Shown: piece by piece, positions 4,462 to 28,066 of the stretch | How the letters are laid out: each line of letters opens with the position of its first letter | How positions within the stretch are numbered: position 1 is the stretch's first letter | Program-made: the position numbers and the translations under genes | Source: Terriglobia bacterium | GTDB taxonomy: Bacteria > Acidobacteriota > Terriglobia > Bryobacterales > Bryobacteraceae | NCBI GenBank assembly: GCA_020073445.1 | Contig: JAIQFE010000003.1 | Span: 1 to 64,000, forward strand | Reading direction: 5' to 3' | Length of the DNA: 64,000 nucleotides | Notes under the pieces: model-generated | Databases searched by the model: none | Told to the model about the DNA's origin: nothing | Seen by the model: the letters and a program-made list of their open reading frames with translations, nothing else

Positions 4462-7400
4462 CTACGGCTGCAGCAGTTCTCCTGGGGTAACTGCAAAAGA
4501 GAAGACGCCTTCGGCCGAAGCGGTAGAGCGTCCCCCAGGCGTGACTGTCACCAGGTGGTTGGCACCCGAAATGGTAACCGAGACGGTGTAGCCGCCAAGC
4601 GGAACAAGATCCGTGATCACGTGGCGAGTTTGCGCCGCTGGCACTACATAGGAGAGCGCGCCCGCGATGGCCGTTCCCACTGGAGCCGTACCGAATACTG
4701 TTGCGGTGTTGCCGCTGGAGGATTGGAGTAGCGCTCCCACGGCCGGCCCGCTAAGAATGGTCAAGGGAGTCGCCGCGGCGACTTGTGCCGAAGATCCGGC
4801 CAGGTCGAAAACGGTCAGCCACTGCCGGGTTGCTGCCGCGGCATCGGTGGGACGGATCTCGGTCCTCCATAACTTGTTCCACGTTTGCGGATCGGTCGAG
4901 ACGCGGTCCGTGGTGACGAATGCTGCGTTCGCGGGAAGAATGGTCGTCATCGAGCCGGCGAATTGTCCGGTGTTGATATCGAAGCGGTGCAACCCCGGCC
5001 CCGGGGGCGGGACTTCGACGGGGTTCGACGGAAAGTGGAAGGCCAGGTATTGATCGAGCGAGGCGTTGCAGATGCCAGTCCGGTCGTATACGACGAATTG
5101 TGACGGCCGCAAGTACAGGATCTGACGGGACCACGATGTGACTGGGGAGTTCCCAGCGCAGATGGTGTTGAACGGCCGGTACATATCCTCGAGGAATTGC
5201 CCCACGGTGAGCACGTAAGATCCGCCGTCTTCGTAACGGCCGATCTTGGTGCGAACAAAATCGCTCCTCTGGAGCGCCCACTGCCCATAGTTGTCGAGAA
5301 TTCCGCCGGTGGCATCGACGTGACGCAATTGAAAGGTGTTGTAGAGAATGCGATTGCCGAGGGTGTGATCAACGTCCCAATTCCCGAAGCGATCGTCATA
5401 CGTAGCGCTCCAGCCAGGATCGCCGTTGGGGTCATGAGACAACCAGGCATCCGGGTTCACCACCAGCGGGTTCTTATTTCTCTCAATCGCCAGCGATCCC
5501 TTGTCGAACGCCTCATGACCGGCGCCCGGATTGTTGATGTATGGACCTGACATGAACGACATGAACGTGCCACTCGTCGACCAGTCCGAGCGTGTCGTCA
5601 CCCCACCCATACCCGGAGCCAAGTAGGACACCGGAAGGCTCGAATAGTCGGAGGTTTCCGGAGCGTTCGGATCCCAGAAGAGGAAGTCGATCCAGTCCGT
5701 GCTGTCTCCAACGCCGAGCGCATCCAGAGCCGTCTTGGCATCGCGCGCATACCTATGCATCATCGGAGCCATCGGATCTCCCAGCATGGCGAGAAGACCT
5801 GCGGAAAACCGATACGTATCGACGCGACCAGTTCCAGGCCAGATCCTTGGGTCACCAGTGCCGTATAGCTCGCCGCGATCGTCAATAAGATCGCGTGTGG
5901 GCCACGTAAACGCCATCAGCCAGCGCGGATTGTCGAGCGGATACGTGTAAGACGAGTTGGGATCTCCTGCCTGAATCAGGTCGATGCCTTTGGCGGTCTT
6001 CACCGCGAGTGCGGGCAGAGACTGGTTGCGGGTCGCCAGAATTCCGTACTGTGCGTAGCCTTCGGTCCATCCTCCACCGGCGAGGTTGGCTCGGTAATAC
6101 GGTGCAGTACGACCCAAGTGTTCGTGGTTGTACCAGTCGTTCCACCACGTGTCACCGATGGCTGCGTCTCCCTGGACGGCCAGAGCCGCCACGCACTTCG
6201 CGACATAGTAGCCGGCGTAGTAGTTGCCTTGCGGAATTTCATACTCGAAGGCGACTTTAGGATCGGTTTCGAAAGTCGTAAACCACTGGCTGAGCGCGGT
6301 CTGCAATTGCGTCAACTGCGCCGGTGTCATCCGATCGTGGAACCAATCGTAGCCCATGCCCATCCCGAAGCCGAAATTGCGGATGCCGTAGCCGTCATCG
6401 CGCAGCGGGATTGCGCAGTTGCAATCGTCCGCGGTCTGATGGGTCGGGTCCGACATAGCCATGAGGATCGCGACGCCAGCCGTTGCGTATTTCGCGGCAG
6501 TGGCCGGATCTGATGCCTGGATCGTCTGGTAACAAAGGCCGAGCGGCATCAACGCAGCGACGTATCCGTCGCCTTGATAGCCCTCGCCTACATTGGGCCG
6601 GTCGGGATAATCGTTTCCGTTGATGAATTCAACCGTGCCGCCTATGTAAGAATCGCAGGTCGACTTCAGCGTGGTCCATTCCGCCGTATGCGCCTGCGCG
6701 CGCCCACGGAGCGTGGCGAGCGTCGGGGCGTCGAGAATGATTCTCGGATGCGCGCTCGTGGTCGGATTCACCAGAGTGATGGTCGCGGAAGCGCTCTTGG
6801 TTGGATCCTGAACGCTGGTCGCGATCGCCGTGAACGAACCCGTGGCGCTACCCGCCGTGTAGAGTCCGAAGGACGAGATCGTCCCGCCTGTTGCCGACCA
6901 GGTCACCGAAGTATTCGCCGCGTTGGTCACGGTTGCGGTGAATTGTTGCGTGCCGTTCGTAAACACCGTCGTGCTCGTGGGAGAAATGCTGATGCTGACT
7001 GGTTGCGGTAGCGTGTTGACCGTAACGGTCGCTGTCTCGATTGCGGAACCTCCGGCATTGGTTGCAGTCAGCGTATAAGTGGTAGTCGCGGCGGGAGTGA
7101 TGGTCAGGGAATTGCCCGTGACCGTTCCTACTCCGGGAGAGATGCTGAATGTGGTCGCACCGGTGACAGACCAGTTCAGAGTCGTGCTCTGCCCTGACTG
7201 CACGGAAGACGGTGATGTGGTGAAGCTTGATATGACAGGCGATGCAGGCGTCCCTGAACCTCCACCGAACAAGCCGAACTGATCGGCAGGCTCGCCGTTG
7301 CCAACCGCGCCGATGTTGCCTCCCTGCCCGTCTTGCGGATCGCCCGCGCCAAGGAGCGGACTGCCCGCAGCCGGCGTGTACATCAAGCGGTACGTCGAAA

Positions 7401-10400
7401 GAACATCCGAGACTTTTTTGGTTCGGGTCCAGATATCTTCGGGCAGGAACGGGAATGGAATCGTGGTGGGCTGTTTGAACTTCGGATTCAAGTGCCCATT
7501 GAATCCGCCCAGGTCGTGCATTCCATACCCCGCGCTGCCGGCAGACTTGCCGACAACTCCCAATCCGTAGTTCAGCTGATTGGGAGCATCCGGGTTGTAG
7601 AAGTCGTTGTAATCCGCATAGCGCACCCGTGCTAGCGGGGGATTCGTGGATTCCCCGAGATCTCCGGCCAGGAATGGCGATCCCGCCAGATCCGCGAAAT
7701 TGTAGAAGACATTGTTGCGCAGGCTGCCGATGAATGCGCCTGGCAGGACTGCGACGGGAGTTCCGGAGAAGGCCATGAAGGCGCCGCCTCCGTCCATCAC
7801 GTTGTTGTGGAACTGAACGTTATCGACGTTATACATCACGCGGAGCCCCGTTCCGGGACTGTAGTAGGTCTGGCTAACCGTAAACGTGATGATGTTGTGA
7901 TGCATGTTTGCGTTGCTCAGCGGACCCTGGATGATCTGATCCGAGTTGCCGCTGGCATCGATCAAGTTGTAGCGAAGTTCGCCGCCAAAACCCCGAACGG
8001 GCCAGGACGAGCTGCGAATCACGTTATGCTCGGCAAGGAAACCATCGCCATCCAGCTGGAAATTGTCGCCCTGCGAGAAGCGATGCGGATAATTGTGCTG
8101 GCTGTAGTTGCCCCGCAGCACCATGTTCGAAGATCCGCTGATGGTGAATCCGCAGCGAACTCCCATCAGAACGTTACTCTCGGCATCGGTATTGCCGCCG
8201 ATCAGCCAGTTCCGCGTGTTCTCGAAAACAACCGTCGACAATCCGACGTTATTCCCTTGGAAAAACTGTTGCGCGGTGGAGTTGCCGATCGCGTGGAACA
8301 CCGGAAGCGTCTGGTTGGCGTATTCCGTCGGGAGCGAAGTCACGGGAACCAGCGTGTTCTCGCGGAACTCGTTGTTGCGGACGACCGCCTGCGCCTGATC
8401 GTTCGTTCCGATGGAGACGGTCCCGAAGGTGTCGAACACGTTGCCGGTCAACTGAACGGACCCCGCACCGTTGACGGTCACGTCGATCGATGGGTTGGTG
8501 GCCGTGCCCAGGCCGCGAATATCGCAATTGCGGATGTTCAAGGATCCAGTGAAGCCACTCACGGATCGGATCTGGAAGCCGTTCCCATTGATCGCGCAGT
8601 GATTGGCCGGAGTTCCCGCATAAGTAGTCGTCTGCGATCCCGACAGCACCACGTTGGCGGTCAGATTAAAGACCGGCCCCGAGGAAGCTGCCGGATTATC
8701 GACGTAAACCGTCACCGGCCAGCTGTTCACAACCTTGCTCGCCGTCGACGTGATCTGCGTGGTAATGGTGTACGTTCCGGCCGCGACGTTGTTCACGGTC
8801 AAGGCCCAATATCCATTGCGGGAAGCATCTCCGACGTACGTGCCGACCTGCTGGCCGTTCATCAGAAACCGGACGGTGAGGGCGTCCGGATCGGCCGCAC
8901 CTCCGTCGAAGGCATCGGCGTAGATGTGAATCGTCGCCGGCGCGGTGAAGTGCATACCGGAAACCGGACTTTGCGTGACGACGTAGGGCCCGTCGAACAT
9001 ACGTGGCACGGGCGGATACACCGTGGTCGTGGTGTTGATATGGACCGAGGCGGTCGCAGTCTTGGTCGGATCGGCCACCGACTTCGCGGTCACACCGAAG
9101 TTTCCCGCGCTGGCGCCCGCTGTATAGAGACCCGTGGAAGAGATGGTTCCGCCGGTGGCTGTCCAGGTTACGGCGGTGTTGGAGCTGCCAGTCACCGCAG
9201 CCGTGAATTGCTGCGTCCCACCGGATTGCAAAGTGGCGCTGGTGGGCGAGACCGTAACGGAGACCGCAGGAGGGGACTGGATGGTCACACTGGCCGAAGC
9301 AGTCTTCGTGGAATCGGCGACGGAGGTTGCCGTGACGAAAAAGTTACTGCCCGCCGTGGAGCCGGCCGCAAATAGCCCGTTGTTTGAGATCGTTCCTCCC
9401 GCGGCGGTCCAGGTTACAGCCGTGTTAGAACTGCCCGTCACGGTGGCGGTGAACTGCCAGGTTTGTCCGGATTGCAAGGTCGCGCTCGTCGGCGAGACCG
9501 AAACCTGCACGGGCTGCGGTTGCGGGATCGTTATCGTGGCAGTGCCTGCTTTAGTCGGATCCGCTACAGAAGTAGCTGTGACGGTGAAGCTGCCGGGAGC
9601 GGCGCCCGCCGTATACACGCCAGTTCCCGAGATCGTGCCGCCGGAGGCGGTCCACGTTACTGAGGAGTTGGACGATCCGGTTACCGAGGCGGTAAACGTC
9701 TGCTGACCGCCCGCCGGCACAGTTGCCGTCGATGGCGAGACCGTCACGCTAACAGCGGGTGCTCCCGAAGCCACGACAACAGTTAGCATCGGGCGCATGT
9801 TCTGTTTTCCCGCCGTGCTGACCGGATTCACGATATATCCCGGAATATTGTTGACCAGCATGATCCCCTGATCGGCGGCGGGGGTATCAATCCATGCCTG
9901 AACCACATCCGGATCCAAGGCAATCGTCACGGTCTGCGTGCCCACAGGTCGTAGCGCTGGAACCTGGAAGGTCTTGCCCGCGATCGTATCGACGCCCGCC
10001 GAAGAAGCTCCGGGACCAGCCCAGTCGCCGGTCGAGCTTCGATGCAGCCAGCCGAGCTTGTTGGAGGCCGGGTCCCAGCTGTTCTTAAGATAGAATCCCG
10101 TGATATTCGAGCTACGCGAATCCCAATTATCGATGGAGATGGTGAGTGCAGCGGACACGACCTGCGATCCGGCCGGAATCGAGAGGCTTCCGAACTTTAA
10201 GAGATAGCGGACCGAGTACGCGCCGCTCCCAGTGGTGGTGTAGCATCCCAGTTCCGGGTCGCCCGTCCATTGAATCCCATTGCCGCCGTTGTACTGAGAG
10301 TATTGCGTATTGATGGATACGTCCGCGCCGCCGGTGTAACCGCTGACGCCATTTCTGAATGTCAGAGTGGTGTTCGCACCCAATGCGGAGGCAGCCAGAA

Positions 10401-19007: not shown

Positions 19008-19274
19008 CTACGGCGACGATCCCGAGTCAACGGCGCCGCCCACCCTCCGCAGCTTCTCCAGGCGAATGACAAAAAGGCAGAGACCTCCGCAGGCGAGAAA
19101 TAGGACGCCGGAAATGACAGCGCCGGGCAGAGCTGCGTCGCCATGGCCGGCGAGATAAGCGTCCAGCGTCGCCGAGAGCAGCCACATCTGAACGACGAGG
19201 AGCAGGACGATGAGCGCCATCGCACCGTCGATGGCCGTGAGGCCTCGGGTTGGCGAGACACGGGGGCCGTTCAT
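19008..19274 (-). CDS. Small two-helix membrane protein (DUF6755-like)
   Basis: Protein of 88 residues with two predicted transmembrane helices (about 19-39 and 52-70) and a basic C-terminal tail. It resembles the DUF6755 family found beside Rieske proteins; the assignment is from memory of the pattern and is moderate. Its ATG overlaps the Rieske stop (ATGA), so it is the last gene of the seven-gene operon and is probably a membrane subunit or assembly partner of the Rieske/cytochrome b part. Confidence 0.65.
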   Translation of the reverse strand: MNGPRVSPTRGLTAIDGAMALIVLLLVVQMWLLSATLDAYLAGHGDAALPGAVISGVLFLACGGLCLFVIRLEKLRRVGGAVDSGSSP

Positions 19275-19819
19275 CGCGCTTCCCGTTCCGCTTCCATCCG
19301 AATTGCGACCAGATCCGTGCCGCGCCGCTCGAGAACCACCCGGGGTAAAGGTCGCGTCGGAGGCCCTTGAAGAACCGAGCCATCTTCGATGGAAAAATAC
19401 CCTTCATGGCATGGGCATTCGATGCGATGATGCGCTGGCGAGTAATACACCGCGCAAGAAAGATGTGTGCACTTCTGGCTGAATGCGACGTACCGGTCCT
19501 CACTGGTGCGCACCAGAATGCATTGGTCCTCCGGACCTGGATATTCGAACAGTTTCACTCCGTCCACGGGGATTTCTCCAGCGCGCGCGATAGCGCGTTC
19601 GGGATATGTGACGCGGGAGCGCAACCACGATTTCACCAGAATCCACGCGTTGCCAGCGAACATCGCCAAGCTGGTCAAGGTGAGGAACTTGGTGAGTTGC
19701 CGGCGGCTCACGTAGCGCTCGTCGGCCTTGTAGATAGAAAACTCCTCGCGCCACAGCGGGCGGTCACCAGTTCCAGCCCCCTGGTCAGGTGAGGTTTCCG
19801 TGGGTTTCTCAGGCTTCAT
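19271..19819 (-). CDS. Membrane-anchored Rieske [2Fe-2S] protein
   Basis: Electron-transfer protein of 182 residues. One N-terminal membrane helix lies at about 45-63 after a RRQLTK stretch, followed by a Rieske fold with box 1 CTHLSC (Cys117, His119, Cys122) and box 2 CPCHEG (Cys135, Cys137, His138). In Rieske proteins the first Cys and the His of each box bind the cluster and the other Cys pair forms a disulfide. The start ATG at 19819 has GGGAGG upstream and overlaps the ferredoxin stop by 11 bases. It probably carries electrons between the cytochrome b-like part of the NarK fusion and the ferredoxin/molybdoenzyme pair; which side of the membrane it faces is not certain. Confidence 0.9.
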
Positions 19820-20396
19820 GGGATACTCCCTCCCACATATAATCAACAACGTCGATTGCGATTTCGTCGAGCCCGGCGGGCGCCATCATGAATACCTTAG
19901 TTCTCACCAGCTGCTGCCCAAAGCGGAAATCGTTCACGGGGTTTTCGCGGCGCGTGCGAGCGATCTCCTCCGGCCGCACGTAAGCCAGAGCCTGACTGGG
20001 ACAGACGGTGGCGCACATGGGACGCTTGCCAGCCGAGGTGCGGTCGTAGCACATGTCGCACTTCATCATCTGGTCGTACTCAGGCACCAGCTTGGGAATG
20101 CCGAAAGGACAGGCGAGTACGCAGTTCGAGCAAGCGATGCAGCGCGGTTTCAATGCCGATTGCACAACGCCATCCTCACCTATCTTGATTGCGTCTGCCG
20201 GACATACTTCGGCGCAGGTTGGATCATCGCAATGGAAGCAAACGAACGCCGCGCTGGCGATGGAGTTTGACCGGTCCAGGTAGTCGAAATTGATCATAGA
20301 GACGCCACGATGTGTCTCGCATTCCTCGCAAGCCTTGACGCAGGCCTGGCAGCCGATGCAGCGCGAGGGATCGACGAAAAACTCGTACCCGAACAT
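19809..20396 (-). CDS. Four-cluster [4Fe-4S] ferredoxin subunit (DmsB/NrfC type)
   Basis: Electron-transfer subunit of 195 residues with 16 cysteines arranged as four [4Fe-4S] sites: Cys13/16/19/23, Cys53/56/61/65, Cys86/89/92/96 and Cys113/116/128/132. This is the standard pattern of the iron-sulfur subunit of molybdopterin oxidoreductases. No signal peptide is present, so it should be cytoplasmic along with its partner. The ATG at 20396 overlaps the molybdoenzyme stop (ATGA), which sets the start; a longer in-frame version would add 11 residues inside that gene. Confidence 0.92.
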
Positions 20397-22612
20397 CAGC
20401 GCGGCCCTCCGTTTGGGTTCGTCGCCCACTCAGGAACGTGCTCGGCCTTGCGAATGCGGCAGGCCGACACCTTGAATTCAGGGATCTTACTGCGTGGGTC
20501 GAGCGTGCGGTGGGTGAGTTTGTTGGCGCTCTGTTCATCCGCCCAGTGGTAAGGAACGAAGACCGTGTCCGGGCGAATCGTCTTAACGATCATGGCGCGC
20601 AACGTCAGTTCTGCACGGCGGGAAGTGATAGTTACCCAATCGCCGTCCACGATGCCGTGGCCTTCAGCAAGGCGCGGATGGATCTCGGCGCGCGGCTCCG
20701 GATATATATCCACGAGACCGCCGATCCGTCGTGTCTGGGCGCCAGAAAGGTACTGGCTGACTACGCGACCCGTGGTGAAGTACAGAGGGAAATCCTCGGC
20801 AACAGGATCGCCGCTCTCCCTCCACTCGGTCACTTGGAAGCGGCACTTGCCGTCCGGAAACAGCGAAACGCCCCCTTCCATCAGCCTCGGCGTACCAGGG
20901 TGATTTTCCGACGGACACGGCCAAAACACGCCCATCTCGCGATCGATTCTTTCGTAAGTGATGCCGTAGTAATCGGCGATACCGCCGCGCGAGGCTTCGC
21001 GCAATTCATCGAAGATTTCGCGCGTAGACTGGAACGGGAAATAGCGCTCCTTTCCCAGGCGCCGCGCCAGCTCACAGATGATTCGCGAATCGCCCCACGC
21101 ATTCGCCGGGGGATCGACCGCTTTGCGAATGTGAAGCACCCGACCTTCGGTATTGCAGGTCACCCCCTCCTCCTCTTCCTGAAGACTTCCAGCCAACACG
21201 ACGTCGGCATGGCGGGCCGTCTCGGAAAGAAAGAAATCGATCACGCCGAAGAACTCCAGCCGGTTGAGCGCCTCCTTGGTATATTCGGCGTGCGGCAGCG
21301 AAACCGTCGGATTGAAACAAATCGATAGAAGGCCCTTGATCTCGCCCTCATGAATCGCGTTCATGATCTCCTGTGCGGAGTAGCCGGCCTGTGGCAATTC
21401 GTCAGGCTGAATACCCCAGACACGGGCCACGTGCTCCCGGGCGGCTGGATCATGGATCGAACGCGCCCCCGGCAACTGGTCGCATTTCTGGCCGTGCTCG
21501 CGGCCTCCCTGGCCGTTACCCTGGCCGGTGATCATGGCGCATCCGCAGCCTTCGCGCCCAATTTTCCCAGTAGCGAGCGTGAGATTGATTAGCGCCAGCA
21601 CATTCTCGACACCTTTCGATTGATGTTCCAGCCCACGTGCGTGCAGCGCGACACTCCGCGGGCCTTGGGCAAACCATTGGGCGGCGAGTTCAATGGCTTC
21701 GGGAGGCACTCCGGTGCGCTCCGCCACCGAACGCAGATCATAGGATTTGACGGACTCAGCCACTTCATCGAATCCCGTGGTGTGCACGGCAATGAAATTG
21801 CGATCTTCCAAACCATCCCGCAGCACCACGTGCAGCATTCCCATCAGGAGCACCAGGTCCGTTCCAGGCCGGAGGGGCAAATACAGGTCCGCATTGCGTG
21901 AGATGGGCGTAAAGCGTGGGTCCGCGACAATCAGTCGCGCACCGTGATCGCGCGCGCGCCAAATGTAGTCCGTAGTGATCGGCGCACATTCTCCCACGTT
22001 GGCGCCGATGCAGAAGACTACGTCGGCTTGGGCGATGTCGCTCCACGGAATCGGGCTGCGGTCTACGTTGAAGGCGAGTTTATACGCCACGCCCGCCGAA
22101 ACCATGCACAGGCGTCCGTTGTAATCGATGTGGCGCGTGCCCAGAGCCACACGCGCAAACTTCCCCATCAGGTATGCCTTCTCGGTGATCAGTGATGCTC
22201 CGCCAAACACAGCCACCGAGTCTTTCCCATACTTTGCCTGGATCTCCTGGAGACGCTGCACCGTAAGATCAAGCGCCTCCTCCCATCCTGCTTTGCGGAA
22301 ACCTCCGCGGGTGCGAATGAGCGGATCAAGAAGGCGGTCGGGATGATTCGACTGGAGGTAACGCTTGACACCCTTGGGACACAGTTTGCCCTCATTAAAA
22401 GGAAACTCTTCCCACGGCTCGAACCCGATCACGGAGTTCCCGCGCACCTTCAGTTGGATTCCGCATTGCTGACCACAGAAGCAGCAGTGCGTTTTCACCA
22501 GGCGTTCAGCTGGATTTCGAGACTCCTCTTGCCAACCACCGGGAGGCACTCGCTGCGGATGAGGGCCGAATTCCGCGGTCAGTTGCTGAAGGTCCACTGG
22601 GGGCTTAGCCAC
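20396..22612 (-). CDS. NarB/NasA-like molybdopterin oxidoreductase (probable nitrate reductase)
   Basis: Catalytic subunit of 738 residues. An N-terminal [4Fe-4S] site is formed by Cys43-x2-Cys46-x3-Cys50-x27-Cys78. The motif GRLCMVSA supplies a Cys as probable molybdenum ligand, as in NapA/NasA/NarB enzymes. The C-terminal molydopterin dinucleotide-binding domain is present ([22 protein letters not shown]). There is no Tat signal, so it should act in the cytoplasm. The GTG start at 22612 has AGGAG 7 bases upstream and overlaps the NarK fusion gene by 8 bases; longer frames would extend far into that gene. The NarK partner makes nitrate the most likely substrate; a formate dehydrogenase-like role is the main alternative. 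Confidence 0.85.
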
Positions 22613-24797
22613 GCGACTGCTCCTTGGCACGAAGTTGTGCTCCGGCGAGCGTCTTCCGTTTGCACGTGGGACACAGCGCCTGCCAATGCCCCGCGCCCCC
22701 CCCGATCTGGTAGTTAAATCCCACTTGAGGAAGCACGCGTCGCAGGTCGTCGATGTGCATTCGAGAGGCAAAGCGCTGGCCGCATCGCACGCATTGAGCG
22801 CGCTCGCCTGCATCCCCAACTTCCTGATACAGCTTCACACCCAGTTGCGCGGGACGCTGGAAAATATGAAAAAACTTGCCGAATGGTAAATAGAGCAGAC
22901 CAGCGACAACGGTGATGGCGTGAAGAATCGACAGAAAACTGTATCCCACGCCGCGCAACCACTCCTGCGAGGCCGTGAGTGCCAGACCACTAATCGAAAT
23001 GGCGAACAGGATCGTCAGCGGGAAAAAGTCCATGGCAAAGGATTGCAGTGGCTGCGCTCCCTGATCTCGCATGCGCCGCCACAGTGAAAGTCCGATGCCG
23101 GCCAATACCAGGACTGCCGCGATATCCAGACCGTGGAACAGGAGACTCGAAACCAGGGTACGGATCCGGAATTCTCCCGCCGGAAATCCGAACAGATACG
23201 TGACGTAAATCATCTGATCGTCGGGCCGGCTGCGGAAGGCAATCCATCCGAAGACCAGCGGAAACGTGATAACCACCGCCAGCAGGCAGCCCCAGAAGAT
23301 GCATTGGTGCATCCACCAGCGTAGTGCCGATCGGCGTTGGATGAAGCGCTGTCCCACCAAGTGGGTGGCAGAAGTACGGACGATCGTTATGATGCTGCCG
23401 ATGCCGCGCGTATGCAGGAGTTGCCATCCCCGTTCCCAATAGAGGCGCGTCGGCGGTTTCTCCAGCCATACATTGTAGTGATACACCACGCCCCACGTGG
23501 CGAAAATCACCGCGAACGTGTAGATCACCAGCGCGGGGTCGAGATTCGCGAGGTTCCTGGAACCAACCACGATGGCGGCGATGAGCACTGCCGTCCAGAG
23601 TGTCGCCCAGGCACTGGCCCGCAAGCGCTCAAAGTTCCGGCTGGATACCATCGCCGTGCGATCGCGCGGGAGGAAAACACGATTATTGACGATCCACAGC
23701 ACAAACGCTGTGAGCGCCAGGAGCACGAAACCGGGCCAGATCATCCCGAGACGGTCGCGGAAGAATCCTAACAAGAGTGGCGGGAAGAATCCGCCCAGGC
23801 CGCCCATGGCGCCGACTAATCCGGTGACCGTGCCGGTTTCGGCGGCGAAGTATTGCGGAACGAGTTTAAAGACCGCCCCGCTTCCCGCGCCCAATAGAGC
23901 CGCGCACCCCAACGCGCCCACGGTAAACGGGACCATGGACGGCCACGCCAGCAACAGCGCGAACGGCACGACGCCCAGAAATACCAGCGAGAGAACGTGT
24001 GCACCGCCGATGCGGTCCGAAAGCCACCCGCCGATGGGGCGCGTTCCGGTGGCCAGCAGAACGAAGCCGGCGGTGCGGAATCCGGCGTCCGCGGCGGTCA
24101 ACTGGAACTCCTGCCGAAGCAGCGCCGGAAGGTAGATCGAGAACGCGACGAATCCGCCGAAAGTCAGAAAATAGAACGCCGAGAGAACCCATGCTAGGCG
24201 TTCTCGGCCGAGCAGCGCAAGCATCGCTCCCAGTTTCCGCGGCGGCGCCGTCGCGGGCGCGTTGCGAGCGGACAGAGCGAATACCGCGGCCCAGATCACC
24301 AAAAGAACCGAGACACTACGAAAGACGGTCTCCCATCCGAAGCGCGCCGCTAAAAGCGGCCCGAGAAAGACCACCACGGATTGCCCGGCGTTGCCGAGGC
24401 CGTAGACGCCCAATGCCGTGCCCTGTTGCTCACGCCCGAACCACGGCGATACGAAACCGACGCCGACGGCGAATGACGATCCGGCCATGCCGAGTAAGAA
24501 TCCGACCACCAGCAGCATGGAATAACTCGACACAACCGGCGCCAGGAGCGGCGGAATCGCCGAGAATAACAGCAAGCCGGAGAAGACGGCTCGTCCTTTC
24601 CAGTGGTCCGTGAGAAGACCCATGGGAATGCGGGCCAGCGACCCGAGAAGCACGGGGGCTGCGATTAGAAATGCGGTCTGGCTGGCGCTGAGGTTATAGA
24701 TCTCGCGGAAGCGCGTCGCGAATGCACTGATCAGGCCCCACGCCGCAAAGCAGATCGCAAACGATATGGTGCCGAGCGCGAGCTGGCGATTGGCCAT
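22605..24797 (-). CDS. NarK-type nitrate/nitrite transporter fused to NarI-like cytochrome b domain with zinc-ribbon tail
   Basis: Membrane protein of 730 residues. Residues 1 to about 375 are a 12-helix MFS transporter with NarK signatures (GNAGQSVVVFLGP at 135-147 and GAMGGLGGFFPP at 329-340) and conserved arginines in RIPMG and TRPIGGW. Residues about 395-650 form additional helices with His497, His555, His626 and His644 in helix positions like those of haem-binding quinol-oxidising cytochrome b subunits (NarI/HdrE type). The tail has CxxC at 669-672 and CPTC at 709-712, a zinc-ribbon or rubredoxin-like site. The gene is 13 bases after nnrS. The design suggests one polypeptide that imports nitrate and passes quinol electrons to the downstream Rieske/ferredoxin/molybdoenzyme. 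Fusion is intact with no frameshift. Confidence 0.87.
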   Translation of the reverse strand: MANRQLALGTISFAICFAAWGLISAFATRFREIYNLSASQTAFLIAAPVLLGSLARIPMGLLTDHWKGRAVFSGLLLFSAIPPLLAPVVSSYSMLLVVGFLLGMAGSSFAVGVGFVSPWFGREQQGTALGVYGLGNAGQSVVVFLGPLLAARFGWETVFRSVSVLLVIWAAVFALSARNAPATAPPRKLGAMLALLGRERLAWVLSAFYFLTFGGFVAFSIYLPALLRQEFQLTAADAGFRTAGFVLLATGTRPIGGWLSDRIGGAHVLSLVFLGVVPFALLLAWPSMVPFTVGALGCAALLGAGSGAVFKLVPQYFAAETGTVTGLVGAMGGLGGFFPPLLLGFFRDRLGMIWPGFVLLALTAFVLWIVNNRVFLPRDRTAMVSSRNFERLRASAWATLWTAVLIAAIVVGSRNLANLDPALVIYTFAVIFATWGVVYHYNVWLEKPPTRLYWERGWQLLHTRGIGSIITIVRTSATHLVGQRFIQRRSALRWWMHQCIFWGCLLAVVITFPLVFGWIAFRSRPDDQMIYVTYLFGFPAGEFRIRTLVSSLLFHGLDIAAVLVLAGIGLSLWRRMRDQGAQPLQSFAMDFFPLTILFAISISGLALTASQEWLRGVGYSFLSILHAITVVAGLLYLPFGKFFHIFQRPAQLGVKLYQEVGDAGERAQCVRCGQRFASRMHIDDLRRVLPQVGFNYQIGGGAGHWQALCPTCKRKTLAGAQLRAKEQSRG

Positions 24798-24810: not shown

Positions 24811-26142
24811 TCAGCTTATCGCAACCGCCGGTTGCAGGTGAGCCGGAGGTTGGAGCAAGGTCAGCGCCAGGTTCACGGCGAACAAGCCGACCGCCAGCAG
24901 TTCGATTACGCCGGAACACGGGAGCACATGCCAGGCGACCCGCACGTTATTCTCATACGCTGGGATCTCGGACGCGACGCGCAACACGCAGCCGACGTTG
25001 AGCGCAGCCAGCGAAGCCAGCATCAGGCGGGGGCTGTACAGGACGCGCGCACCGCAGAAGGCGGGCAGAATCCGCTGGCCGATCGCGAACACCATGGTCG
25101 AGAGAAATCCGACGGTGAGCGCGTGCCGCGACGCGCCCCAGATGCCGCCACTCACATCGCTCCAGGATGCGCGCACCGACAGAGCTGCGGCGACCAGCAG
25201 CCACACGTACGCTAGTCGCACAAAGAACGGAAAGCTCGGATGCACGCCCGTGGTCTTCGCCGAACGGACGGAAGGCTCAGCAATGCGTAGTGCGAAAACG
25301 GCGGCCAGCGCTGCGAACGGAAGCAGAGCCGCGAACCAGGTGAGTCGACCGGAAAATTCCATCAGAATCGCTGCCCACCCGAGGCCCAGAGCGAAAAACA
25401 GAAATCTCGGCCGCGGCTGGTCGAGTCCCAGAAAGACGGGCAGCCAACGCGCGTTGAATCCCCATACAGCAGGAACCAAGAAGCCCCACGTCGCGAGCGT
25501 CACCAGCCGCTGGTCAGACACGTGTCCCAGTGTGGGTCCCGTGTTGTCAATGGAAGCCTGAAGAGTTGCGATAAGATTCATTGCCAGCGTTACCAGAAAT
25601 CCGAGCGTCGAGCCGATCACCATTAGCATCCACGGCTCAGGTCTGCGAGGGGTTGCCGTAGCCCCTCCTGCCGGCGTCGGAGGCCGATGACTGGAGACAG
25701 TCCGGAAGAACACCAGAAACGCCGCCAATTCCAACAGCCCAGAGAGCGGCAGCAGGATTCTCCACTGCCAACCCGCAACGCCCGCGAACCAGCGCAACGT
25801 GATCCCGGTGGCCCATAGACCGAAGCAAGTCCATCCGCGCGGGATGGCGAAGGCGGGCAGATGGCCCATCTTGGTCAGAGAATAAAACCCGATGCCTAGG
25901 ATGAACGTCCCGATCCACCCGAAGATCTGAGCGTGTCCGTGAGCTTGCAGAAAAGCCGGAGAGAGACTATCGAGCGCGTGCCGGCTGCTGATCGAAATTA
26001 GGTTCCAGACCCCTAGAAACGTACCTGGCAGCAGCAGGAACAGGAGGCCCGTAAGGATGTAGCAGACCAACATGCGCTGCATCTTTAATTCGCGCTCAAC
26101 GAGAGTGGCCGGGCCCGTGCCGATCTGGCTAGTGGTGCTCAT
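24811..26142 (-). CDS. nnrS: NnrS family haem-copper membrane protein
   Basis: Integral membrane protein of 443 residues with about 12 helices. The histidines in HGHAQIFGWIGTFILG (about 67-82) and RHALTVGFLSTMVFAIGQRILP (about 337-358) match the NnrS family, a haem- and copper-containing protein that protects against nitric oxide stress and is often co-regulated with denitrification genes. It overlaps the ric stop codon by 14 bases and precedes the NarK fusion by 13 bases. Its presence implies that nitric oxide forms during the pathway this operon encodes. Confidence 0.85.
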   Translation of the reverse strand: MSTTSQIGTGPATLVERELKMQRMLVCYILTGLLFLLLPGTFLGVWNLISISSRHALDSLSPAFLQAHGHAQIFGWIGTFILGIGFYSLTKMGHLPAFAIPRGWTCFGLWATGITLRWFAGVAGWQWRILLPLSGLLELAAFLVFFRTVSSHRPPTPAGGATATPRRPEPWMLMVIGSTLGFLVTLAMNLIATLQASIDNTGPTLGHVSDQRLVTLATWGFLVPAVWGFNARWLPVFLGLDQPRPRFLFFALGLGWAAILMEFSGRLTWFAALLPFAALAAVFALRIAEPSVRSAKTTGVHPSFPFFVRLAYVWLLVAAALSVRASWSDVSGGIWGASRHALTVGFLSTMVFAIGQRILPAFCGARVLYSPRLMLASLAALNVGCVLRVASEIPAYENNVRVAWHVLPCSGVIELLAVGLFAVNLALTLLQPPAHLQPAVAIS

Positions 26143-26869
26143 GGGCTAGCTCCGTGCCCTGCTCCATGTGAAGCGCGCGCGGGAAGAGGATGTTGTTCTC
26201 CAGGTGCACATGCTGGTGAAGATCGCGTTCAAATTCGTCCAAACCGTGATACAGAGCTCGATAGGTCGGACACGCGGACTCCGGTGCGCTGTATCCCGAG
26301 GACAGTACGCGCATCTTGGCCAGTAACACCCCGGCATCTTCGTGGTCGGCGAGCATGCGGCTGATCGGCATTTCGACGGAACCGAAAACCGCAGGTGGTG
26401 GAATTTCCCCTCGGGTCACAGCCGCGTCCATCTTCTCGAGGTAAGGGAAAAGGACATTCTCCTCCTTGAGCATGTGTGCGAACAGTTCCTGCGTCAGCGC
26501 ACTGAATAAGTCGCGGATCGAGGCCAGCTCCGGGTGGTCTTGCCCATGGCGGCTCACAACCTTGTCGAACATCGTCATTAGACGTGGGGTCTCGCTGCGG
26601 ACGTAACTGTGGTGGCGGCCGACGATGTGGCTGATCAACTCCTGGGCGCTGGCTCCGGCCCAGTTTGCAGCCTCAGATGGCGTGTGTTCCTCAATTTGCG
26701 CCAGCAGATCGAGAGTGCGTTCCACTGGCACGCCCGCGCGCTCACAAGCATCCTTCAGAGTTCGCTTGCCGCCACAGCAATAGTCGATCCCTAGCGACTC
26801 GAAAGCCCGGACAGTCGCAGGATGCTCGATCGCGATCTCTCGCACAGTCTGGTTCAGATCGGGTTTCAT
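26129..26869 (-). CDS. ric: Di-iron iron-sulfur cluster repair protein (RIC/YtfE/ScdA)
   Basis: Cytoplasmic protein of 246 residues that repairs iron-sulfur clusters damaged by nitric oxide or oxidants. The N-terminal ScdA_N domain (DUF542) has the CCGG motif at about 31-34, and the C-terminal hemerythrin-like domain supplies the di-iron histidine/glutamate ligands (GRHHSY, HMLKEENVLFPYLE, DHEDAG, HQHVHLENNILFPRA). The ATG at 26869 has AAAGG upstream; a GTG two codons earlier is the alternative. It heads the operon, so its promoter in 26870-27070 probably drives all seven genes. I could not find a convincing FNR, NsrR or NnrR site there. Confidence 0.92.
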   Translation of the reverse strand: MKPDLNQTVREIAIEHPATVRAFESLGIDYCCGGKRTLKDACERAGVPVERTLDLLAQIEEHTPSEAANWAGASAQELISHIVGRHHSYVRSETPRLMTMFDKVVSRHGQDHPELASIRDLFSALTQELFAHMLKEENVLFPYLEKMDAAVTRGEIPPPAVFGSVEMPISRMLADHEDAGVLLAKMRVLSSGYSAPESACPTYRALYHGLDEFERDLHQHVHLENNILFPRALHMEQGTELAHEHH

Positions 26870-28066
26870 ATGCACACCTTTCCCTCTTTCTGGGCTGGTG
26901 CAACTGAAAGGCCAAGGTGGATTTATGGCCGATTCGTCGCGTTTTTGGAGATGTTGCTGCCGTGACTATGCAGGGTTGCGCCTTTTGGCCCATAGCGATG
27001 ACGGTAATCCGGAATCGATTTCCGTGGACGGTTAACCCAATTTCATGAACCCAAGAGGGTCAAAGGAATGGTTAACCGGCAAGTCGGCCGTGGCTAGTCG
27101 AATCCCCCGGATCGCCGATAAGGCCCAATATCGGTTCCCGCGGTGGAGACCTATCGTTTTCGCAAGGGATGGGAACTCGGACGGGAGCCAGGTTTTTGGG
27201 ACGCCCCTGCGCGCCTCGTACGCGATTTAGCAAGTCGAATCGTCCTGATTGGCCGCCTAGATCTGTCCGGCGTGCCCTGAGTCGCCCAAGAGTTTTTGGC
27301 ACGAAATCCGTGACGCCAAGCGCTCCTCCAGCTTCCTAGGACAATCCCGTTCCATTTGGGGATCGCGTCGTCCTCGTCAGAGTCGGGCCGGTGCGCGAGT
27401 TGGGTTTAAGACGGCCGGTTTGCGTTCGCCAATCCCAGTTAATATTTACTATACTCGCGCGCGCGAGGCCAGGTGTGTGGAAACAATACTTATGAATCAG
27501 AGAGTTAGTGTGTACACCGGCTGTCGGGAAAATTGAGGCCGAAACCGGGTGCGAAAACGAAGTCGTTTCGGGCATTCGGGAGGGTCCTTATCCACCGGAA
27601 AAGAGCGCTGTCGGGTCGGGCCGAACAACCAGGGTTCATTTTGCACATTCTGACGCGACGCTTTGGCTTCGGTGCGACTCTGTCATCCGCCTAACCCACC
27701 CCGAGCCCGTCGGTACTGGGATCTGGTGCGCCGTGCCGAGTGCAGCGTGCGTCCCAAAATTCAAGGAACGCGTCCTAAAACTCTCAGAGCGTCGGGGCCG
27801 AGGGTAGCTGTATCCGTACCGACAAAAAGGCTTCCAGGCGCTGTACGCAAAGCGAGGACCCGACACACTTGGTGGTCCGTCGACTCCGGTGAGCCACCAA
27901 GCTGCGTCCCAGCGTTGTGTTGCTCGCCGGCCGAGCGTGGAGCTGGAGCCGCCATCGACGAGCCTGGGAGCGCGCCGTCATGCGGCCGTCGCCGGTACGC
28001 TGCCCACGGTGATCGAATAAGCCGCCGCCGGAACCACCACATAGCCCCCCCTAACACCGGGCATCT
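26870..28066. other. Gene-poor region of about 1.2 kb
   Basis: No supported gene. The first about 200 bases should hold the promoter of the nitrate operon. At 27066-27082 the 17-base word GAATGGTTAACCGGCAA is identical to 1773-1789 beside the IS91-like element. The remainder (27.1-28.07 kb) has open frames on both strands rich in Arg, Pro, Cys and His that look random rather than coding. An AT-rich patch near 27440-27460 stands out locally. The stretch may be an eroded mobile-element or accessory segment. Confidence 0.5.
27066..27082 (+). repeat. Dispersed word GAATGGTTAACCGGCAA, copy 3
   Basis: Exact 17-base match to 1773-1789. A weaker likeness follows (GCCCAATATCGGTTCC at 27123 compared with GCCCGATATCGGTCC at 1840), at a similar but not identical distance, which fits two diverged copies of an element end. 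Confidence 0.5.

Follow-up and report, generated by a model that had tools for sequence, protein, structure and literature searches.

Can the entry of nitrate and the oxidation of quinol be combined in a single polypeptide? This question is raised by a gene in a 64,000-nucleotide stretch of DNA (positions 1-64,000 of contig JAIQFE010000003.1, GCA_020073445.1; hereafter the window) from a Terriglobia bacterium of the Bryobacteraceae, whose genome is referred to as G000. A sequence-only reading had described the gene as a NarK nitrate transporter fused to a NarI-like cytochrome b with a zinc-ribbon tail. The narK-cytochrome b fusion gene (22605..24797, minus strand) was found to run from an ATG start at 24797 to a TAA stop at 22605, with 730 codons and no internal stop. 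The intact single frame was thus borne out, with the minus strand as a detail that had been missing. The encoded 730-residue protein (P0001), modelled by AlphaFold with a predicted local distance difference test score (pLDDT) of 87.6 and a predicted template modelling score (pTM) of 0.72, consists of a NarK-like part (residues 1-382), a six-helix cytochrome b part (387-663) and a tail with a cysteine quartet (664-730). It is a real, conserved fusion and the core of a probable quinol:nitrate oxidoreductase that differs from NarGHI and NapAB.

In the species genome collection, 308 relatives were found by a scan, and the best 80 loci were retained for locus counts. The NarK segment and the cytochrome shared one open frame at 70 of the 80 loci and were adjacent separate genes at nine, while in one case (L095) the cytochrome stood alone; some of the 70 fused loci end at a contig edge or carry a frame break elsewhere (e.g. 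L030, L071 and L084). A shared frame at so many loci is far more than chance would give. Because the two halves share a frame at 70 loci, a sequencing error or read-through was ruled out as the source of the fusion, and the frame-splitting error considered in the sequence-only reading is excluded on the same grounds. The same fusion, for which other acidobacterial genomes had been suggested as the place to look, was found widely and also outside the Acidobacteriota: the loci belong mainly to this phylum and further to Obscuribacterales, Planctomycetota and Armatimonadota, with two labelled Deltaproteobacteria (Myxococcota in the NarB tree) and one labelled Acidimicrobiia. Among 61 kin genomes, 12 matched the fusion protein at E 1e-30, ten of them at full length. 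Where the contig leaves room, a NarB-type gene lies next to the fusion or the cytochrome at 76/76 loci, a gene for an iron-sulfur (Fe-S) protein is present at 68/69 (the sole miss, L080, is cut at the expected site), a Rieske gene at 69/69 and a DUF6755 gene at 57/67, the ten misses being eight split loci, L095 and L090.

Conservation of single residues was followed in an alignment of 57 rows selected from the 80 loci (P0001, 46 fused and 10 unfused relatives). H497, H626 and H644 as well as C669, C672, C709 and C712 are invariant (57/57 each), and H555 is present in 53/57, being replaced by asparagine in L082, L083, L085 and L086, an unfused clade. The histidines and the CxxC pairs (669/672 and 709/712) that had been picked out from P0001 alone are therefore conserved across the family. 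In a quick NarB tree of 73 rows, with Shimodaira-Hasegawa-like approximate likelihood ratio test supports only and a single long outgroup branch, 61 main-clade fused rows were separated from the split rows (support 92). The fused L090 sits among the split Armatimonadota (supports 96 and 100), and because of this nesting the fusion may have arisen twice, with L090 as the second event.

The NarK-like half (23652..24797, minus strand) was assigned by structural alignment with VIA-align, by phmmer and by a conserved arginine pair. Its best stretch for MFS_1, the Pfam family of the major facilitator superfamily (MFS), covers residues 11-338 (E 6.8e-43), and the NarK model TIGR00886 matches residues 4-336 (E 6.1e-65) with 219.7 bits; as this score is below the curated cut-off of 311.7, the half is called NarK-like. 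VIA-align placed it on NarK/NarU entries with Z 36.8-38.6 and 26-27% identity, and other MFS chains of only 12-20% identity rank equal or higher (top Z 41.2), so that the fold by itself says only MFS. With phmmer, NarK/NarU were the only matches in the PDB (best E 8.3e-17). R56 aligns with R89 and R253 with R305 of NarK, which we take to be the substrate (nitrate)-binding arginines, and each is present in 47/47 proteins.

In a fold search with the full-length protein, the list was taken up by MFS chains; the fold matches of the second half come from its isolated model. The cytochrome b half (22809..23639, minus strand), assigned from fold and profile matches, has six helices taken as membrane helices and was modelled with pLDDT 86.9. 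Its best fold match by VIA-align is EtfD (Z 11.4, 3.8 Å over 208 residues), followed by eight NarI entries (Z 9.8-10.3) and then by unrelated channels from 8.7 downward. In profile searches of 35 members at E 0.01, matches were obtained to TcuB (35), QmoC (34), TmcC (16) and DsrM (9), those to TcuB, QmoC and TmcC lying far under the cut-offs. Nitrate_red_gam (PF02665) was touched by 28 of the 35 members at E 0.1, with 17.4 bits for the window member versus a gathering threshold of 22.9; when genomes were scanned at E 0.01, PF02665 was found neither in G000 nor in G014, and the carriers G029, G030 and G034 came just over with neighbouring segments. No match of the second half was obtained with phmmer in the PDB, and a profile search of the PDB gave nothing below E 1. 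By hhalign, the cytochrome matched the NarI proteins of the relatives with a probability of 23% (E 0.00089; nine NarI rows, two of them ends of longer frames), with 12% (E 0.0026) when these two rows were left out, and an EtfD-like protein (L124; the name is ours) with 77% (E 2.1e-5, 52 columns). We infer that the EtfD, NarI and TcuB/QmoC-type matches all belong to a single, loose class of quinol cytochromes b.

NarI holds two b haems with a pair of histidines on each of helices II and V. According to hhalign, the two histidines of the last NarI helix correspond to H626 and H644, which have a spacing of 18 residues. The helix-II pair is not reproduced: helix 491-515 carries only H497 of the four conserved histidines, and H555 on the next helix would fill the place that is supplied in NarI by another helix. 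Given cytoplasmic NarK termini, the candidate haem ligands would be H497/H644 on the cytoplasmic and H555/H626 on the periplasmic side. In agreement with this topology, the density of lysine plus arginine per residue in the family (57 rows) is 0.167 in the loops assigned to the cytoplasm versus 0.076 in those assigned to the periplasm. The sequence-only reading had counted on a four-helix haem pocket after residue 395; the model has six helices after residue 386, and the haem pocket that they would form is a candidate. By fold, the half is nearest to EtfD and NarI and by profile to TcuB/QmoC, and it lacks the helix-II pair of NarI.

The C-terminal tail (22608..22808, minus strand) has the motif CxxC-x36-CPxC (C669-x2-C672-x36-C709-P-x-C712). 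When 32 tails were scanned alone with NCBIfam, the HycF model was matched by 29 and HyfH by 23, any other model by five at most, and the HycF match of the window member spans both cysteine pairs. The matches in Pfam were sporadic, to zinc ribbons and treble clefs, and none was seen in more than 7/32 tails. In formate hydrogenlyase, HycF is described as binding a single metal, assigned tentatively as iron, through its quartet CxxC-x34-CPxC, which lies close to the interface with FdhF and is in contact with HycB (PMC9474812). The tail therefore looks most like the HycF quartet, with a plain zinc ribbon as a possible alternative; of the "zinc-ribbon tail" proposed before, the invariant CxxC pairs stood and the assignment was refined. 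Because the tail is HycF-like and its partners are of the FdhF and HycB kinds, it may serve, by analogy, as a docking site for the Fe-S protein and the NarB-like enzyme.

Seven genes lie on the same strand in the order RIC, NnrS/COX1-like, fusion, NarB, Fe-S, Rieske and DUF6755, with the fusion gene in third place; they overlap by 14, 8, 1, 11 and 4 bases with a single gap of 13 bases (start codons were picked by eye). The molybdenum enzyme (20396..22612, minus strand; 738 residues, GTG start) overlaps the fusion gene by 8 bases. It scored 785.3 bits with the NasC model NF047855 and 580 with the Fdh model, both under cut-off, and it is labelled NarB/NasC-like because the equivalog cut-off of NF047855 is 1100. 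Its Fe-S motif CxxCxxxC and the motif YNGRLCM are present in 75/75 proteins, and no signal peptide was seen by eye. Its nearest relatives in the PDB are formate dehydrogenases (HDCR FdhF, E 1.2e-132) and NapA (E 3.1e-100). The Cys-Met of YNGRLCM is as in NapA, formate dehydrogenases having a histidine there. The next gene (19809..20396, minus strand) encodes a four-cluster Fe-S electron-transfer protein of the DmsB/HycB type (TIGR02951, E 1.1e-26, below cut-off) with 17 cysteines in a four-cluster pattern (by eye) and with FdhN beta, HycB3 and HycB as PDB relatives.

The Rieske [2Fe-2S] protein (19271..19819, minus strand; PF00355, E 3.9e-11) resembles AioB and bc-type Rieske proteins, and its boxes CxHxxC and CxCH were found in 69/69 proteins. 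An RR...F motif, a sign of the twin-arginine translocation type, stands before its single hydrophobic anchor in 68/69, the lone miss being cut by the contig. Because this motif precedes the membrane helix, the protein is probably exported to the periplasm; direct electron transfer to a cytoplasmic NarB would therefore not take place, and the route through the Rieske protein that the sequence-only reading had drawn became doubtful. The enzyme, the Fe-S protein and the Rieske protein were all found downstream as it had claimed, together with an unlisted DUF6755 gene (19008..19274, minus strand; PF20540, E 9.5e-11) for a small membrane protein of 88 residues with two hydrophobic stretches (by eye). 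As judged from gene conservation, both the Rieske protein and the DUF6755 protein are parts of the system. In two relatives with NarG, L115 (G034) and L118 (G024), a single frame encodes NarI followed by a Rieske-like domain at the C-terminus (boxes seen by eye); these frames represent another nitrate cytochrome paired with a Rieske protein.

Upstream of the fusion gene lie the genes of an NnrS/COX1-like membrane protein (24811..26142, minus strand; 443 residues; over the cut-off of PF05940 with E 5.9e-9 and below that of PF00115 with E 1.8e-5) and of a RIC/ScdA-type iron-sulfur repair di-iron protein (26129..26875, minus strand; TIGR03652, 239.2 bits, cut-off 204.7). A second, decayed copy is present on contig 42 of G000 (L002, L003 and L103; ~7081-9857), where open RIC and NnrS-like frames are followed by a broken NarK part; upstream of it are a Crp-type regulator (Pfam) and CBS and Usp-like genes (by eye). 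In G020 a lone NarK half (L104, 2895-4064; 78% identical) is preceded by NnrS-like gene fragments, and the stretch around it (L014) gave no cytochrome or NarB match. At L095 (6323-8535 and 14088-15422) the unfused cytochrome is near genes resembling nosF, nosL and nosY (by eye), and a 444-residue protein without Pfam match is encoded between the Fe-S and Rieske genes. The operon of L068 (6263-9203, Obscuribacterales) is flanked by a protein resembling the quinol nitric oxide reductase qNor (by eye) and an Rrf2-like regulator.

These results make it likely that a membrane-bound quinol:nitrate oxidoreductase is the product of this operon, with a nitrate/nitrite transporter built into its membrane subunit. 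From the observed fused frame, conservation, operon and fold resemblance, we infer how many haems there are and where they sit, as well as the topology, the docking, the substrate, the direction and the physiological role, as follows. The NarK half, with 12 helices and both ends in the cytoplasm, would take nitrate in and let nitrite out. Quinol would be oxidised near the periplasmic face by the fused cytochrome b, and electrons would pass from a haem at H555/H626 to a second one at H497/H644 at the cytoplasmic face. There, the cysteine-quartet tail would act like the HycF extension of formate hydrogenlyase, as the docking site for both the cytoplasmic NarB-type enzyme and the Fe-S protein with its four clusters. 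The simplest path would lead from quinol over two haems and the Fe-S protein to NarB, with nitrate being reduced inside the cell. Overall, the process would be electrogenic, as with NarGHI, and would be used at low oxygen, with RIC and NnrS handling the nitric oxide that follows. Outside, the Rieske protein might be the first acceptor of electrons from quinol or provide a second electron entry. Of the earlier idea that one polypeptide couples nitrate entry to quinol oxidation, the fusion of NarK to a quinol-type cytochrome b is thus supported, and quinol oxidation, haem binding and nitrate reduction are predicted.

The nitrate reductase genes of the ten full-length carriers are consistent with this reading, with NapA over cut-off in none of them and NarG in two (G029 and G034). 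The same two have NrfA, and in G029 NarG lies ~5 kb from the operon. No NarG was found in G000 at E 1e-60, the operon partner of the fusion being of the NarB type. One carrier, the cultured strain KBS 96 (L034, G030), has all five genes from the fusion through DUF6755. According to the cited text (PMC5900883), KBS 96 was reported to turn ~3% of the nitrate into nitrite; a dissimilatory nitrate reductase was not identified in the strain, a putative assimilatory gene nasA was present and two nirK genes were counted. Granulicella mallensis MP5ACTX8 is described there as another bacterium that forms nitrite from nitrate, likewise without an identified dissimilatory reductase (PMC5900883). NirK over cut-off was obtained in 0/10 carriers, KBS 96 having three weaker matches. 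The operon is therefore a candidate for the nitrate reduction of this strain. The nasA gene counted by its authors may be a separate gene or the operon NarB itself under that name.

Several points weigh against a quinol:nitrate oxidoreductase of this build. The NarB, NarK and Fe-S scores are all under the NCBI curated cut-offs. When the cytochrome half was searched by itself with Foldseek, nothing reached E <= 0.001 and a purine receptor took the top rank; Z values of 10-11 can reflect an arrangement common to helical domains, although the unrelated rows start at 8.7. In P0001 itself, the loop charges are nearly equal (10/71 versus 6/46). Two haems are not certain because EtfD is described with a single b haem held by two histidines (PMC13083937) and asparagine replaces H555 in 4/57 proteins; one haem is possible, most of all in L082, L083, L085 and L086. 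In the PDB, HycF was the best match spanning both cysteine pairs of the tail, but its E value of 0.083 is weak and a zinc finger ranked ahead of it (0.072). No clear Fnr box was found upstream in the window (best 6/10 positions); in the relatives, 15/74 reach 8 positions versus 4.2 expected from single-base shuffles. The flanks speak for the reading, with RIC or NnrS at 24/65 loci and with Hemerythrin/ScdA_N (14/13), cNMP-binding/Crp helix-turn-helix (12/11) and NnrS (8) as the commonest domains, but the domain tally, of 105 open reading frames picked from 303, all from L016-L074, had no background control. Lastly, nasA could explain the nitrate reduction of KBS 96.

Three other functions have to be weighed. 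The same complex might use quinol electrons to supply ammonium, nitrite being passed on to NirB, NirA or NrfA, and not for respiration. NasC is indeed the nearest NCBIfam model of the catalytic subunit, and NirB is over cut-off in 6/10 full-length carriers and NrfA in 2/10. However, contig 95 of G000 carries a separate locus that reads as an assimilatory set (NarK, NirB, NasC and an Fe-S/anchor protein); its NasC, named from matches to NarB and NAPA, is 33% identical to the operon NarB. In addition, four of the ten carriers are without NirB over cut-off (PF01077 is present in 10/10 but does not separate nitrite from sulfite reductases, so that a NirA may be among them), and genes for nitric oxide repair and Crp-type regulators stand in some flanks. 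An assimilatory role is thus unlikely. On contig 95, the Fe-S protein runs into a DmsC-like membrane anchor (L102, 13106-14629; by eye), which hints that this NasC is quinol-linked too.

The complex could also act as a redox valve or as a source of a nitrite or nitric oxide signal at low oxygen, quinol being oxidised on the cytoplasmic side with no energy conserved. The RIC/NnrS neighbours and the small share of nitrate reduced by KBS 96 (PMC5900883) would fit, but H555 and H626 lie at the periplasmic helix ends in the drawn topology, which the family charges favour and those of P0001 leave neutral; we regard this as somewhat less probable than assimilation. That the NarB-like protein is formate dehydrogenase-like or another oxyanion enzyme, with the transporter carrying another anion, is suggested by the formate dehydrogenases being its closest solved structures by sequence. 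The higher score with NasC than with Fdh (both under cut-off), the Cys-Met of YNGRLCM in all 75 proteins and the conserved NarK arginine pair argue otherwise and make this very improbable.

A respiratory quinol:nitrate oxidoreductase hence remains the preferred reading. With about even chances, it represents a further energy-conserving class of nitrate reductase beside NarGHI and NapAB, in which the nitrate/nitrite antiporter and the cytochrome that oxidises quinol are covalently joined, a formate hydrogenlyase-like electron module lying inside and a Rieske protein outside, in Acidobacteriota and some Obscuribacterales, Myxococcota, Planctomycetota and Armatimonadota, and the missing enzyme behind the nitrate reduction of KBS 96. 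Obscuribacter has been predicted to respire nitrate (PMC4040986). The fusion was not described in the literature searched, which did not reach preprints and most subscription papers, so that a description may exist. If the proposal is true, the usual markers narG and napA miss a nitrate-reducing pathway of abundant soil bacteria, in which genes of the NarB type are classed as assimilatory; one polypeptide combines uptake of the substrate, release of the product and delivery of electrons; and nitrate reduction in KBS 96, for which no dissimilatory reductase had been found, can be tested directly in a strain that grows in culture.

Among known systems, NarGHI with NarK of E. coli likewise has its nitrate site in the cytoplasm, supplied by a cytochrome b in the membrane, together with an Fe-S link protein and a NarK nearby. 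Unlike there, NarK and the cytochrome are fused here, the catalytic subunit is of the NarB/NasC and not the NarG type, one candidate haem ligand is on a different helix, and the Rieske protein, DUF6755 and the cysteine-quartet tail are added. EtfD, the mycobacterial ETF:menaquinone reductase and top VIA-align match of the cytochrome half, is described with heterodisulfide reductase-like Fe-S domains and one b haem and as reducing menaquinone (PMC13083937), whereas no heterodisulfide reductase-like Fe-S domains were found in P0001 (Pfam at E 0.1, NCBIfam at E 0.01). The cytochromes b of TcuB, QmoC and TmcC, the strongest though sub-threshold profile matches, belong by family name to tricarballylate or sulfur metabolism, and their models include no transporter fusion. 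The HycF-HycB-FdhF module is similar in joining a molybdenum enzyme, a four-cluster Fe-S protein and a nearby CxxC-x34-CPxC metal site (PMC9474812), but here the quartet is on a quinol cytochrome rather than on a hydrogenase-side subunit, and no Fer4 match at E 0.1 to the two-[4Fe-4S] ferredoxin domain of HycF was obtained in P0001. Assimilatory NasC/NarB proteins are of the same family as the catalytic subunit, which differs from them in scoring below the equivalog cut-off, in being only 33% identical to the NasC of its own genome and in having membrane partners.

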